Shown piece by piece: positions 6,394 through 9,491 of a DNA stretch of 64,000 nucleotides. The notes under the pieces were generated by a model. It searched no databases. It was not told where the DNA came from and saw only the letters and a list, made by a program, of their open reading frames with translations. A program made the translations under genes and the position numbers. Source of the stretch: Mycolicibacter virginiensis (lineage in GTDB: Bacteria; Actinomycetota; Actinomycetes; Mycobacteriales; Mycobacteriaceae); assembly GCF_022374935.2 (NCBI RefSeq), contig NZ_CP092430.2, positions 1,178,001 to 1,242,000 on the forward strand. The letters run 5' to 3'. Numbering within the stretch: the first letter of the stretch is position 1; each line of letters starts with the position of its first letter.

Positions 6394-7248
6394 GTGCGGG
6401 AGACCAGCAACCCGGTATTTCGTTCGTTGCCCAAACAGGGCGGCGGCTACGCGCAGTTCGGAACCGGTATGGCCGGTGCGACTCAGCAGGTGGGCCAGAC
6501 CTACCAGGTCGACCCGTCATTGGCGCAGTACCAGCAGCGGGAGGTCACTCGCCCGCTGACCATCGATGACGTCGTCACCAAGACCGGCATCACGCTGGGT
6601 GTGCTGAGCGTGGCGGCGATCATCTCCTTCTTCATGGTGTCGGCCAATCAGGCGCTGGCCGGGCCGCTGACCTTCGTCGGCGCGTTCGGCGGCCTTGCCG
6701 TGGTGATGGTGGCCATGTTCGCCCGCAAGCAGGACAACAAGGCGGTGGTGCTCAGCTACGCGGTGCTCGAGGGCCTGTTCCTCGGCGCCATCTCCTGGGT
6801 GCTGACCGCCTTCACGGTGGGGACCGGCAACGCCGGCTCGATGATCGGACAGGCCGTGATGGGCACCCTCGGGGTGTTCGGCGGCATGCTGGTGGTCTAC
6901 AAGACCGGCGCCATTCGGGTCACGCCGAAGTTCACCCGGATGCTCGTCGCCGGCATGTTCGGTGTGCTGGCCCTGATGATCGGCAACCTGGTGCTGTCGC
7001 TGTTCGGCGTCGGCGGCGGTGAGGGCCTGGGCCTGCGCAGCGGCGGGACGCTGTCCATCATCTTCTCGCTGGTGTGCATCGGGATCGCCGCGTTCAGCTT
7101 CCTGATCGACTTCGACGCCGCCGACCAGCTGATCCGCGCCGGCGCGCCGGAGAAGGCGGCCTGGGGCATCGCACTGGGCCTGACCGTGACCCTGGTCTGG
7201 CTGTACCTGGAGATCCTGCGGCTGCTCAGCTACTTCCAGAGCGAGTGA
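6394..7248 (+). CDS. Bax inhibitor-1/YccA-like membrane protein (Rv1072 homologue)
   Basis: A 284-residue membrane protein. A soluble N-terminal tail of about 65 residues is followed by seven hydrophobic segments between about 68 and 280. The actinobacterial Bax1-I family has this layout. The C-terminal pair of acidic residues in FLIDFDAADQLI resembles the pH-sensing Asp pair of YetJ/BI-1 calcium-leak channels. A role in ion leak or stress tolerance is inference from the family. The GTG start has a GGGAC-type SD. The gene is divergent from the echA9 operon and converges on the DUF559 cassette hairpin. Confidence 0.8.
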   Translation: MRETSNPVFRSLPKQGGGYAQFGTGMAGATQQVGQTYQVDPSLAQYQQREVTRPLTIDDVVTKTGITLGVLSVAAIISFFMVSANQALAGPLTFVGAFGGLAVVMVAMFARKQDNKAVVLSYAVLEGLFLGAISWVLTAFTVGTGNAGSMIGQAVMGTLGVFGGMLVVYKTGAIRVTPKFTRMLVAGMFGVLALMIGNLVLSLFGVGGGEGLGLRSGGTLSIIFSLVCIGIAAFSFLIDFDAADQLIRAGAPEKAAWGIALGLTVTLVWLYLEILRLLSYFQSE

Positions 7249-7259
7249 CCCGCTAGCTT

Positions 7260-7323
7260 TTCCCGTTGACTCTGCGCTGACCAGGCAACCTACTCGCACT
7301 TTTGCCTGGTACGCGCAGAGTCA
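7260..7323. repeat. Left hairpin/terminal repeat of DUF559 cassette
   Basis: Arms TGACTCTGCGC (7267-7277) and GCGCAGAGTCA (7313-7323) pair perfectly. Inner arms ACCAGGCAA (7280-7288) and TTGCCTGGT (7302-7310) pair after a 2-nt internal mismatch. Loop is 7289-7301. A T-run at 7324-7329 follows, so this copy also resembles an intrinsic terminator for the Bax1-I gene. Confidence 0.8.
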
Positions 7324-7358
7324 TTTTTTGTGTCGGTGGCCCCGGGCAGCATGCCGAC

Positions 7359-8204
7359 ATGGGACAGCCATTCATCGGTAGTGAGGCATTGGCGGCCGGG
7401 GCGGTCACCTGGCACGAGCTGGAGAAGTACTACCGCTCGATCGCGCCCAACGTGTATCTGGACAAGCGCGTCACACTCGCGCTGCGACACCGCACTGAGG
7501 GAGCCTGGCTGTGGTCGCATCGTCAGGGGGTCGTCTCCGGCTTGGCGGCATCCGCCTTGCACGGGGCGAACTGGGTGGACGACGACGCCACCGTCGAACT
7601 GATCTGGCGTAACGCGCGAGCCCCGCACGGGATCAAGACGCGTGCTGATTTGATCCTCGATGGCGAATCTCAGCACCTCGCCGGCGTCGTCGCCACCACT
7701 CCCGAACGCACCGCTTTTGACCTGGGCCGCCGCGGCCCGTTGCGTCAGGCGGTCGCCAGGCTCGACGCGCTGGCCAACGCCACGCATTTCAAGATCGACG
7801 ATGTGGCGCGGCTGGCGTCGCGGCATCGTCATACCCGCGGCCTGCGCCAACTGGAAGCCGCGCTGTACCTCGTCGATGCCGGTGCGCAGTCACCGAAGGA
7901 GACCTGGCTGCGGCTGTTGCTCAGCGACGCCGGGTTCCCTAGACCCCAGACCCAGATCCCGGTGCTGGGCCCCGACGGTTATCCGAAGTACTTCCTCGAC
8001 ATGGGGTGGGAAGACGTCACGCTCGCGGTCGAATACGACGGCGATCAGCACCGCACCAGCCGCTCACAATTTGTGAAGGACGTCGAGCGTCTGGAGTACA
8101 TCCGACAGGCGGGCTGGACGCACGTCACGGTGCTCGCCGAACACCGGGGCTACGACGTGGTCCGCCGCGTCAGGGAAGCCTGGGATGCCCTAAAACGACG
8201 TTGA
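7359..8204 (+). CDS. DUF559 (Vsr-like) endonuclease with AbiEi-like N-terminus
   Basis: A 281-residue protein. The N-terminal ~60 residues resemble the winged-helix domain of AbiEi-type antitoxins. The C-terminal region (about 178-275) is a DUF559 / restriction-endonuclease-like fold: E181 in SPKETWLR, D214 in YFLDMGW and the E225-x-D227 pair in AVEYDGDQH. These are the residues expected for metal-dependent DNA cleavage. It occupies the slot of Rv1073 in M. tuberculosis. The ATG at 7359 was chosen because the upstream codons run into the left hairpin. Its stop is in the right hairpin. Biological role is undescribed; nuclease, antitoxin-like repressor or selfish gene are all possible. Confidence 0.7.
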   Translation: MGQPFIGSEALAAGAVTWHELEKYYRSIAPNVYLDKRVTLALRHRTEGAWLWSHRQGVVSGLAASALHGANWVDDDATVELIWRNARAPHGIKTRADLILDGESQHLAGVVATTPERTAFDLGRRGPLRQAVARLDALANATHFKIDDVARLASRHRHTRGLRQLEAALYLVDAGAQSPKETWLRLLLSDAGFPRPQTQIPVLGPDGYPKYFLDMGWEDVTLAVEYDGDQHRTSRSQFVKDVERLEYIRQAGWTHVTVLAEHRGYDVVRRVREAWDALKRR

Positions 8205-8265
8205 CTCTGCGCTGACCAGGCGAGTTACTCGCACATTTGCCTGGTAGGCGCAGAGTCAACGGGAA
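8199..8265. repeat. Right hairpin/terminal repeat of DUF559 cassette
   Basis: Arms CGTTGACTCTGCGC (8199-8212) and GCGCAGAGTCAACG (8248-8261) form a 14-bp stem, continued after a short mismatch by ACCAGGC / GCCTGGT. It overlaps the TGA stop of the DUF559 gene (8202-8204) and lies 8 nt from the fadA3 stop, so it may also terminate both convergent transcripts. Confidence 0.8.
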
Positions 8266-8273
8266 TACGGGAA

Positions 8274-9491
8274 CTAGGAGAGCCGCTCGACCACCATGGC
8301 CATGCCCTGGCCGCCGCCCACGCACATGGTCTCCACGCCGAACTGCTTGTCGTGGGTCGCCAGGTTGTTCAGCAGGGTGGCGGTGATGCGGGCGCCGGTC
8401 ATACCGAACGGGTGGCCCAGGGCGATCGCCCCGCCGGACACGTTCAGCTTGTCCTCGTCGATGCCCAGCTCGCGAGCCGAGCCCAGCACCTGTACCGCAA
8501 AGGCCTCGTTGATCTCGAACAGGTCGATGTCCGAGACCGACATCTTGGCGTTCGCCAGCGCCTTCTTGACGGCTTCGATCGGGCCCAGACCCATGATCTC
8601 CGGCGACAGGCCCGACACCCCGGTGGACACGATCCGGGCCAGCGGCTTGAGACCCAGCTCCTTGGCCTTGGTGTCGCTGGTGATGATGACCGCGGCGGCG
8701 CCGTCGTTCAGCGGGCAGGCGTTGCCGGCGGTGATCGTGCCGTTGGGCCGGAACACCGGCTTGAGCTGGCTGATCTTCTCGTAGGTGGTGCCGGCGCGCG
8801 GGCCGTCGTCGGTGCTCACCACGGTGCCGTCGGGCAGCGTGACCGGGGAGATCTCACGGGCGAAGAAGCCGCTGTTGATGGCCTCCTCGGCGCGGTTCTG
8901 GCTGCGCACGCCCCAGTGGTCCTGGTCCTCGCGGCTGATCCCGGTGTGCAGTACCACGTTCTCGGCGGTCTGGCCCATCGCGATGTAGACGTCCGGCAGC
9001 AGTCCGTCGGCGCGGGGGTCGTGCCACTCGGTGGCACCGGCCGCGGCGGCCTCCGAGCGGGCCATCCCGTCGTTGAACAGCGGGTTCTTGCTGTTCGGGG
9101 CGCCGTCGGCAGCACCGATGGCGAACTGCGAGACGGTCTCCACACCGGCGGAGATGAACGCGTCACCCTCGCCGGCCTTGATCGCGTGGAACGCCATCCG
9201 GGTGGTCTGCAGCGACGACGAGCAGTACCGGTTCACCGTGGTGCCGGGCAGGAAGTCGTAGCCGAGCAGCACCGAGACCACGCGGCCGATGTTGTAGCCA
9301 GAGGCGCCGCCCGGCTGGCCACAGCCCATCATCAGGTCGTCGATCTCGCGCGGGTCCAGCGCAGGCACCTTGTCCAGGGCGGCCCGCACCATCTGGGCGG
9401 CCAGGTCGTCGGGCCGCATGGTGACCAGGGATCCCTTACCGGCCCGGCCGATCGGCGAACGCGCAGTTGAGACGATTACAGCTTCAGGCAC
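8274..9491 (-). CDS. fadA3: Acetyl-CoA acetyltransferase (thiolase)
   Basis: A 405-residue thiolase that catalyses thiolytic cleavage or condensation of 3-ketoacyl-CoA. The acyl-accepting Cys90 is in NRYCSSSLQ, His360 in ALGHPFGMTG and the second cysteine Cys390 in MCVGGGQG, so the active site is complete. NEAFA is present near residue 330. The GTG start follows an AAGGAG SD. Synteny points to Rv1074c. Probably acts in fatty acid or sterol side-chain oxidation with the nearby echA genes, but it is a separate transcription unit. Confidence 0.93.
   Translation of the reverse strand: MPEAVIVSTARSPIGRAGKGSLVTMRPDDLAAQMVRAALDKVPALDPREIDDLMMGCGQPGGASGYNIGRVVSVLLGYDFLPGTTVNRYCSSSLQTTRMAFHAIKAGEGDAFISAGVETVSQFAIGAADGAPNSKNPLFNDGMARSEAAAAGATEWHDPRADGLLPDVYIAMGQTAENVVLHTGISREDQDHWGVRSQNRAEEAINSGFFAREISPVTLPDGTVVSTDDGPRAGTTYEKISQLKPVFRPNGTITAGNACPLNDGAAAVIITSDTKAKELGLKPLARIVSTGVSGLSPEIMGLGPIEAVKKALANAKMSVSDIDLFEINEAFAVQVLGSARELGIDEDKLNVSGGAIALGHPFGMTGARITATLLNNLATHDKQFGVETMCVGGGQGMAMVVERLS

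Follow-up and report, generated by a model that had tools for sequence, protein, structure and literature searches.

A dispersed palindrome and the nuclease gene that it frames: a proposed REP-like element in Mycolicibacter virginiensis, probably served by its own homing-type nuclease

The stretch of DNA considered here, referred to below as the window, comprises 64,000 nucleotides of Mycolicibacter virginiensis (NCBI RefSeq assembly GCF_022374935.2, contig NZ_CP092430.2, positions 1,178,001 to 1,242,000 of the forward strand), and at 7260..8265 it contains a compact cassette in which one nuclease gene is enclosed by two long palindromes. Our best reading of this cassette is that of an element resembling the repetitive extragenic palindrome (REP) systems, in which a homing-type nuclease of the element's own recognizes the palindrome and probably cuts it. 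We put a probability of roughly 0.58 on the fuller form of this reading, namely a two-part element made up of a dispersed palindrome of about 63 bp and a dedicated nuclease gene framed by two copies of it, where the nuclease would bind and cut the palindrome and repair would then copy it.

The two framing repeats, 7264-7323 and 8199-8258, are identical at 55 of 60 positions (92%) in direct orientation, and each of them is itself a palindrome with arms of 22-23 nt that are 91% complementary. When the four strands of both palindromes are folded as single-stranded DNA, the z-scores range from −6.8 to −8.9, and none of 200 shuffles of each strand folds as well. The left palindrome (7264..7323, plus strand, with its 55-mer at 7268-7322) carries the loop TACTCGCACTTTT and ends in ATTTTTT, not in the usual AACG, whereas the right one (8199..8261, plus strand, same orientation, with its 55-mer at 8203-8257) is the full 63-bp unit. 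The outermost arms, 7260..7277 on the plus strand and 8248..8265 on the minus strand, are perfect 18-bp inverted repeats of each other. Between the palindromes lies one gene of 281 amino acids (7359..8204, plus strand), with its ATG at 7359 and its TGA stop codon at 8202-8204, inside the right repeat. The initial annotation, made from the sequence alone, had described the matching hairpin ends, the perfect outer inverted repeats, and the stop within the right repeat, and all three descriptions are borne out; its label of terminal repeats is correct for the inverted outer 18 bp, but a transposon-type role finds no support, as the framing repeats present the palindrome twice in the same orientation and are not terminal inverted repeats of the transposon kind. 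The flank-to-flank match score is 48-50 for the cassette gene as against no more than 18 for the 44 other genes of the window, none of which has matching flanking repeats. Neither the cassette gene, which matches no transposase family, nor the three open reading frames that overlap it, which match no Pfam family, gave evidence of a transposase, in line with the original description of the element as transposase-free. A search of Rfam returned a chance match only (E 0.24).

The palindrome is dispersed through the genome as a discrete unit. The pattern GACTCTGC-N-GCAGAGTC, which counts exact outer 8-mers and misses degenerate copies, has 18 sites in the own genome and at least one site in 55 of the 148 genomes of the genus, whereas the reversed control pattern occurs in 1 of 148. 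Outer words included, the own-genome copies measure 55 nt (16 copies) or 57 nt (two copies), and one of them (L283) is without the usual loop. The consensus over 92 distinct oriented copies reads CGTT, the 55-mer, and AACG, 63 bp in all, and as conservation ends four bases outside the 55-mer, what is dispersed is a 63-bp unit and not a piece of some larger duplication. Within it, conservation is seen in the outer arm and in the loop, which reads TACTCGCACTTTT or a variant of it, while stem columns 13-18 are variable in sequence and yet paired in 64-82 of 87 copies. Two of the 18 copies frame the window gene, two frame a second, broken cassette at C1:4742744-4743571, where a relative of the nuclease survives as three separate protein pieces, and 14 stand solo. 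The genome search that had been proposed for the repeat yielded further loci carrying genes of this family, solo repeats, this broken cassette, and palindrome-free sites in relatives. The TTGACTC palindrome is absent from two small genomes of the genus (G074 and G114, 3.3 Mb), in which the nuclease has at most one weak relative (E 3e-36).

The evidence that ties palindrome to nuclease comes from the relatives of the gene, which are present in 146 of the 148 genus genomes with 1 to 12 copies each at E≤1e-20; these per-genome counts are lower bounds, the best 16 candidates having been scored in many genomes. Among the 7998 candidates scored, 6429 matched, and the source names of the relatives listed include hypothetical protein, DUF559, and very-short-patch-repair endonuclease. 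A set of 152 relatives was gathered, comprising 97 from the own genome and from high-scoring matches elsewhere, 37 from the thiolase locus at which the window cassette lies, and 18 from named loci; the removal of 24 duplicates left 128, of which 126 had enough flank for a pairing test, and the set, consisting mostly of best-scoring matches, leans toward the clade of the window gene. For 87 of the 126, the upstream and downstream flanks were more similar to each other than in any of 630 shuffles, and the other 39 had no significant pair. Among the 87 paired relatives, a stem score of at least 12 was reached by at least one copy in 77 and by both copies in 54, as against none of the shuffled sequences, and the direct orientation matched better than or equally to the inverted one in 67.

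The words of these palindromes vary from relative to relative (TTGACTCTGCG, GAGTGTGCG, GAGACTGCG, GAAACTGCACAC, GAGTCAGACC, GAGATTGC, and others), and when the eight upstream flanks of the own genome are set against its eight downstream flanks in a matrix, six of the eight genes have the highest value of their row on the diagonal. A cross-score, in which the upstream flank of one gene is compared with the downstream flank of another and which thereby removes shared host sequence, tracks protein identity over 125 relatives with a Mantel correlation of 0.50, the largest value among 2000 permutations being 0.138. When genes of the thiolase locus are compared with genes elsewhere, cross-scores of at least 20 are reached by 54% of pairs at 60-70% protein identity and by 1% at 50-55%. 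Since the cross-score tracks protein identity across loci as well, the repeat sequence follows the protein clade and not the place where the gene resides. Even a distant own-genome relative of 22% identity (L036) has similar palindromes on both sides, with the word GAGCAGACA, at 1045-1102 of that locus and again some 80-150 nt beyond its position 1971; words similar to GAGCAGACA stand solo at L181, L187, and L318 (genome G072, the L273 site).

Pairing of this kind extends beyond the genus. Across the order, a relative at E≤1e-15 is present in 163 of 200 genomes (own genus included) and in 48 of 60 genera. In 20 outside genomes picked for strong matches, 32 loci were read, and at 15 of them the flank pairs scored higher than the best of 640 shuffles (29), with unrelated words and with stems scoring at least 12 in both copies at 10 of the 15. 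One such word, GATCTTGCACTT, frames a gene of G220 and is present 34 times in that genome and 6 to 19 times in each of five other genomes of the genus to which G220 belongs, and was absent from the remaining 13 of the 19 genomes searched. No relative of the nuclease was found in 50,697 phage records, and 72,556 plasmid records gave six weak matches (<46% identity); a phage or plasmid origin is therefore set aside.

The protein itself scores below the Pfam cut-offs both for DUF559 (16.7 against 20.6 bits) and for the better-matching REase_MTES_1575 (26.4 against 38.2 bits), although PF18741 is assigned to it in the protein database; its fold was assigned from a structure model. On its own, Foldseek returned nothing at E≤0.001, and the statements on fold are based on a re-alignment of Foldseek candidates together with a profile match to 3hrl (E 0.0037). 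In the model, residues 1-173 have an AbiEi-like fold, residues 40-173 resemble MenT1, and the C-terminal part forms an EDxHD/Vsr-type nuclease domain whose closest solved fold is the homing endonuclease I-Bth0305I, so that the 281-residue protein is predicted to be a fusion of an AbiEi-like part and a nuclease domain. The residues E181, D214, H231, and D241, which we take to be those of the EDxHD motif, are jointly present in 117 of 125 relatives. In one relative (L122), two of the putative active-site residues are substituted (D214 to A and E225 to V), but a matching repeat pair with a score of 39 is retained. The initial annotation had called the product a DUF559/Vsr-like endonuclease with a possible AbiEi-type connection: the model agrees with the Vsr-type assignment and with the AbiEi link, while the DUF559 label falls short of its threshold.

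Palindromes at fixed sites are replaced rapidly. The comparison genome G129 is mostly 95-96% identical around the palindrome sites (orthologous stretches 90-98%), and 16 of the 18 own copies can be compared with it, L265 lying on contig ends and L283 having been left out. Only three palindromes are kept (L276 identical, L271 and L267 with small changes, the inner part of L267 being 89% identical); at six sites the palindrome belongs to the same family but its core differs (L278, L279, L282, L285, L286, and L287, with inner parts 41-62% identical and the palindrome at L285 degenerate), three have a different palindrome at the same spot (L280, L281, and L284, the last imperfect), and at four the palindrome is absent or decayed (L269, L273, L275, and L288). 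At L282, 10-20 bp next to the palindrome are altered too, and the L281 spot is occupied by four palindrome families across six genomes with flanks 77-97% identical. At the window locus, G129 retains both palindromes with the same outer arms and other cores, the left loop being inverted, and most of the gene has been lost. Taken together, these alignments indicate that palindromes change faster than their flanks. No clean insertions were seen, no clean empty sites were found at nine solo sites in five genomes, some sites being unreadable in some genomes, and missing copies resemble deletion or divergence. At two G129 loci (L270 and L274), other short GC-rich repeats, of the GCGGAGCCGGGCGCAGCGGGTCGG type in L270, lie beside or replace palindromes.

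The mechanism that we propose would begin with the AbiEi-like N-terminal part binding the palindrome, an inverted repeat comparable in length to the nearly 60-bp, dimer-bound target reported for the related I-Bth0305I (PMC3943268). The C-terminal domain would then cut at the palindrome, or at an equivalent spot at gene ends, and repair of the break from another copy would replace the resident core or a rival palindrome with the cognate one, which could produce both the exchange of cores between like outer arms and the displacement of rival families. Less often, the gene unit might be copied along with the palindrome. Solo palindromes would be non-autonomous copies, recombination between the direct copies would delete the gene and leave one solo palindrome, and the upstream copy may also control expression of the nuclease. 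Of this picture, the sequences themselves show the architecture, the pairing of genes with their own palindromes, the spread of a discrete unit, the rapid exchange at fixed positions, and the conserved catalytic residues, while binding, cutting, copying by repair, mobility, and control through the upstream palindrome are inferred.

A palindrome served by a dedicated enzyme is a known logic, that of the REPtrons, and here it comes with an unrelated enzyme. REPtrons, in which REP palindromes are associated with RAYT/TnpA-REP, share with the present element the dispersed intergenic palindromes, the enzyme gene between its own palindromes, and the co-variation of the two (PMC8266576 and PMC3733652, as far as their accessible text goes). 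Membership among them nevertheless fails, since a Y1/HUH transposase (PF01797) was found in none of 12 palindrome-bearing genomes (controls positive in 5 of 14) and the GTAG tag lies within the 12-nt flank of only 1 of 92 copies, the conserved flank being CGTT/AACG; the 63-bp unit with its long stem and the unrelated enzyme set the element apart as well. EDxHD homing endonucleases such as I-Bth0305I provide the closest solved counterpart of the modeled nuclease fold and the conserved E, D, H, and D, but no intron or intein was seen here, the palindrome has further copies across the genome and borders the gene on both sides, and phage homing endonucleases, according to a review, carry NUMOD-type parts in place of an AbiEi-like one. 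In the AbiE type IV toxin-antitoxin systems, AbiEi resembles the modeled N-terminal part, which in the present protein, however, is fused to a nuclease. Vsr and DUF559 endonucleases (VsrA, the MTES_1575 REase) share fold and family, but no methyltransferase was present among the four neighboring genes scanned, and the excerpts consulted mention no palindrome pairing (PMC12907096, PMC3710099). A cyanobacterial DUF559 gene has already been assigned to the EDxHD family (PMC9403480), an earlier catalogue of stem-loop families in mycobacterial genomes names no enzyme for them in the excerpts consulted (PMC2267715), and a transposase gap has been stated for CGTC repeats (PMC3733652). A literature search that covers few subscription papers, and in which most DUF559 papers were judged by title and abstract opening, linked DUF559 to neither such palindromes nor REP sequences nor mycobacterial inverted repeats.

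Four other explanations have to be weighed. The one that survives best regards the palindromes as binding sites through which the AbiEi half regulates its own gene, the nuclease as a defense or addiction enzyme, and the solo copies as leftovers or self-markers. It is consistent with the AbiEi and MenT1-like folds of the model, with AbiEi matches in PADLOC (E 5e-4 to 9e-3), with an upstream palindrome that at many loci precedes the gene by about 35-65 nt, and with the reported binding of AbiEi proteins to promoter inverted repeats (PMC7319586). We nonetheless judge it unlikely: no toxin gene, including AbiEii (DUF1814), adjoins the window gene, whose direct neighbors are a Bax inhibitor-like gene upstream (PF12811, BaxI_1, ending at 7248) and a thiolase gene downstream on the opposite strand (ending at 8274), an operator needs neither the downstream copy nor the 14 solo copies, and the fast replacement of solo copies is left unaccounted for.

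Very little weight attaches to the view that the palindromes are plain bidirectional terminators of neighboring transcription between two of which the gene merely happens to lie. The solo copies do stand at gene ends, for by a rough gene model five of the 14 sites are convergent, three tandem, five with a gene on one side only, one unclear, and none divergent, with a gene ending at most 16 nt before the palindrome at eight; however, only 7 of 186 palindrome tails contain TTTT, and mismatched pairs in columns 9-18 are of the GT+TG kind in 53 cases and of the AC+CA kind in 57 (17 G-U type against 20 A-C type once the mostly unpaired columns 10-12 are removed). With no excess of G-T and so few TTTT tails, the palindromes give no indication of having been selected as RNA hairpins or of being classical terminators. 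Furthermore, a terminator would not need to match a protein clade, and separate GC-rich hairpins with A/T runs adjoin the palindromes at several loci. Palindromes without an adjacent gene, named at the outset as grounds for doubt if they were plain terminators, do occur, but they do not look like plain terminators, a mixed outcome for that check.

Slighter still is the chance that another enzyme, for example an IS110-type transposase, spreads the palindromes and merely carries the nuclease gene along. In G022, two of the nine orthologous sites have an insert of about 1.6 kb adjoining a TTGACTC palindrome, and these inserts carry IS110-family genes by Pfam (L305 359-1024 and L310 302-1342), which rules them out as full nuclease cassettes; IS110 elements may use TTGACTC palindromes as targets. 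Y1 transposases are absent from all 12 genomes tested, and the one private palindrome per nuclease clade is hard to square with a passenger. No more probable is unaided turnover by template switching or ectopic gene conversion, with the nuclease only protecting or processing palindromes, as core swaps within intact outer arms and the inverted core at the window locus in G129 are expected products of palindrome recombination, but the unrelated palindromes at the L281 spot cannot arise via short shared arms and the conserved catalytic residues require a role.

Relatives of 85-88% protein identity occur in Mycolicibacter arupensis, heraklionensis, kumamotonensis, and MYC340, and relatives of 74-76% in M. 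celatum, kyorinense, and talmoniae; those that form rows of the tree all lie at the thiolase locus (arupensis having been merged as a duplicate), whereas of the 65-67% relatives in M. senuensis and M. algericus, the senuensis row (L255) is at another locus. Mobility of the window copy, as first suggested, is thus not borne out, and the cassette looks old and vertically inherited. Among the 90 thiolase-locus sites examined of 145 genomes with the neighbor gene (30 best and 60 further), a nuclease relative was present in 37, drawn from three or more protein clades whose words differ, and was not found in 53; some gene-less loci have one solo palindrome (L176, L217, L239, and L243). Eleven locus changes were counted on the FastTree topology with all non-thiolase loci lumped together, and this count is not relied on.

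The pairing of nuclease and palindrome is not a one-off, being common across the genus and seen outside it, and it supplies many ready enzyme-target pairs for the study of nuclease-palindrome co-evolution. At slightly less than even odds, we suggest that these loci represent an unrecognized, order-wide class of elements, in which each AbiEi/EDxHD nuclease would own a private palindrome as homing address and self-marker, rival families would displace each other at gene ends, and the enzymes would be the missing mobilizers of palindromic repeats in high-GC bacteria without REP transposases. If the pairing can be taken at face value, it would provide a function for a large nuclease family and an enzyme for dispersed palindromes that have had no known transposase.
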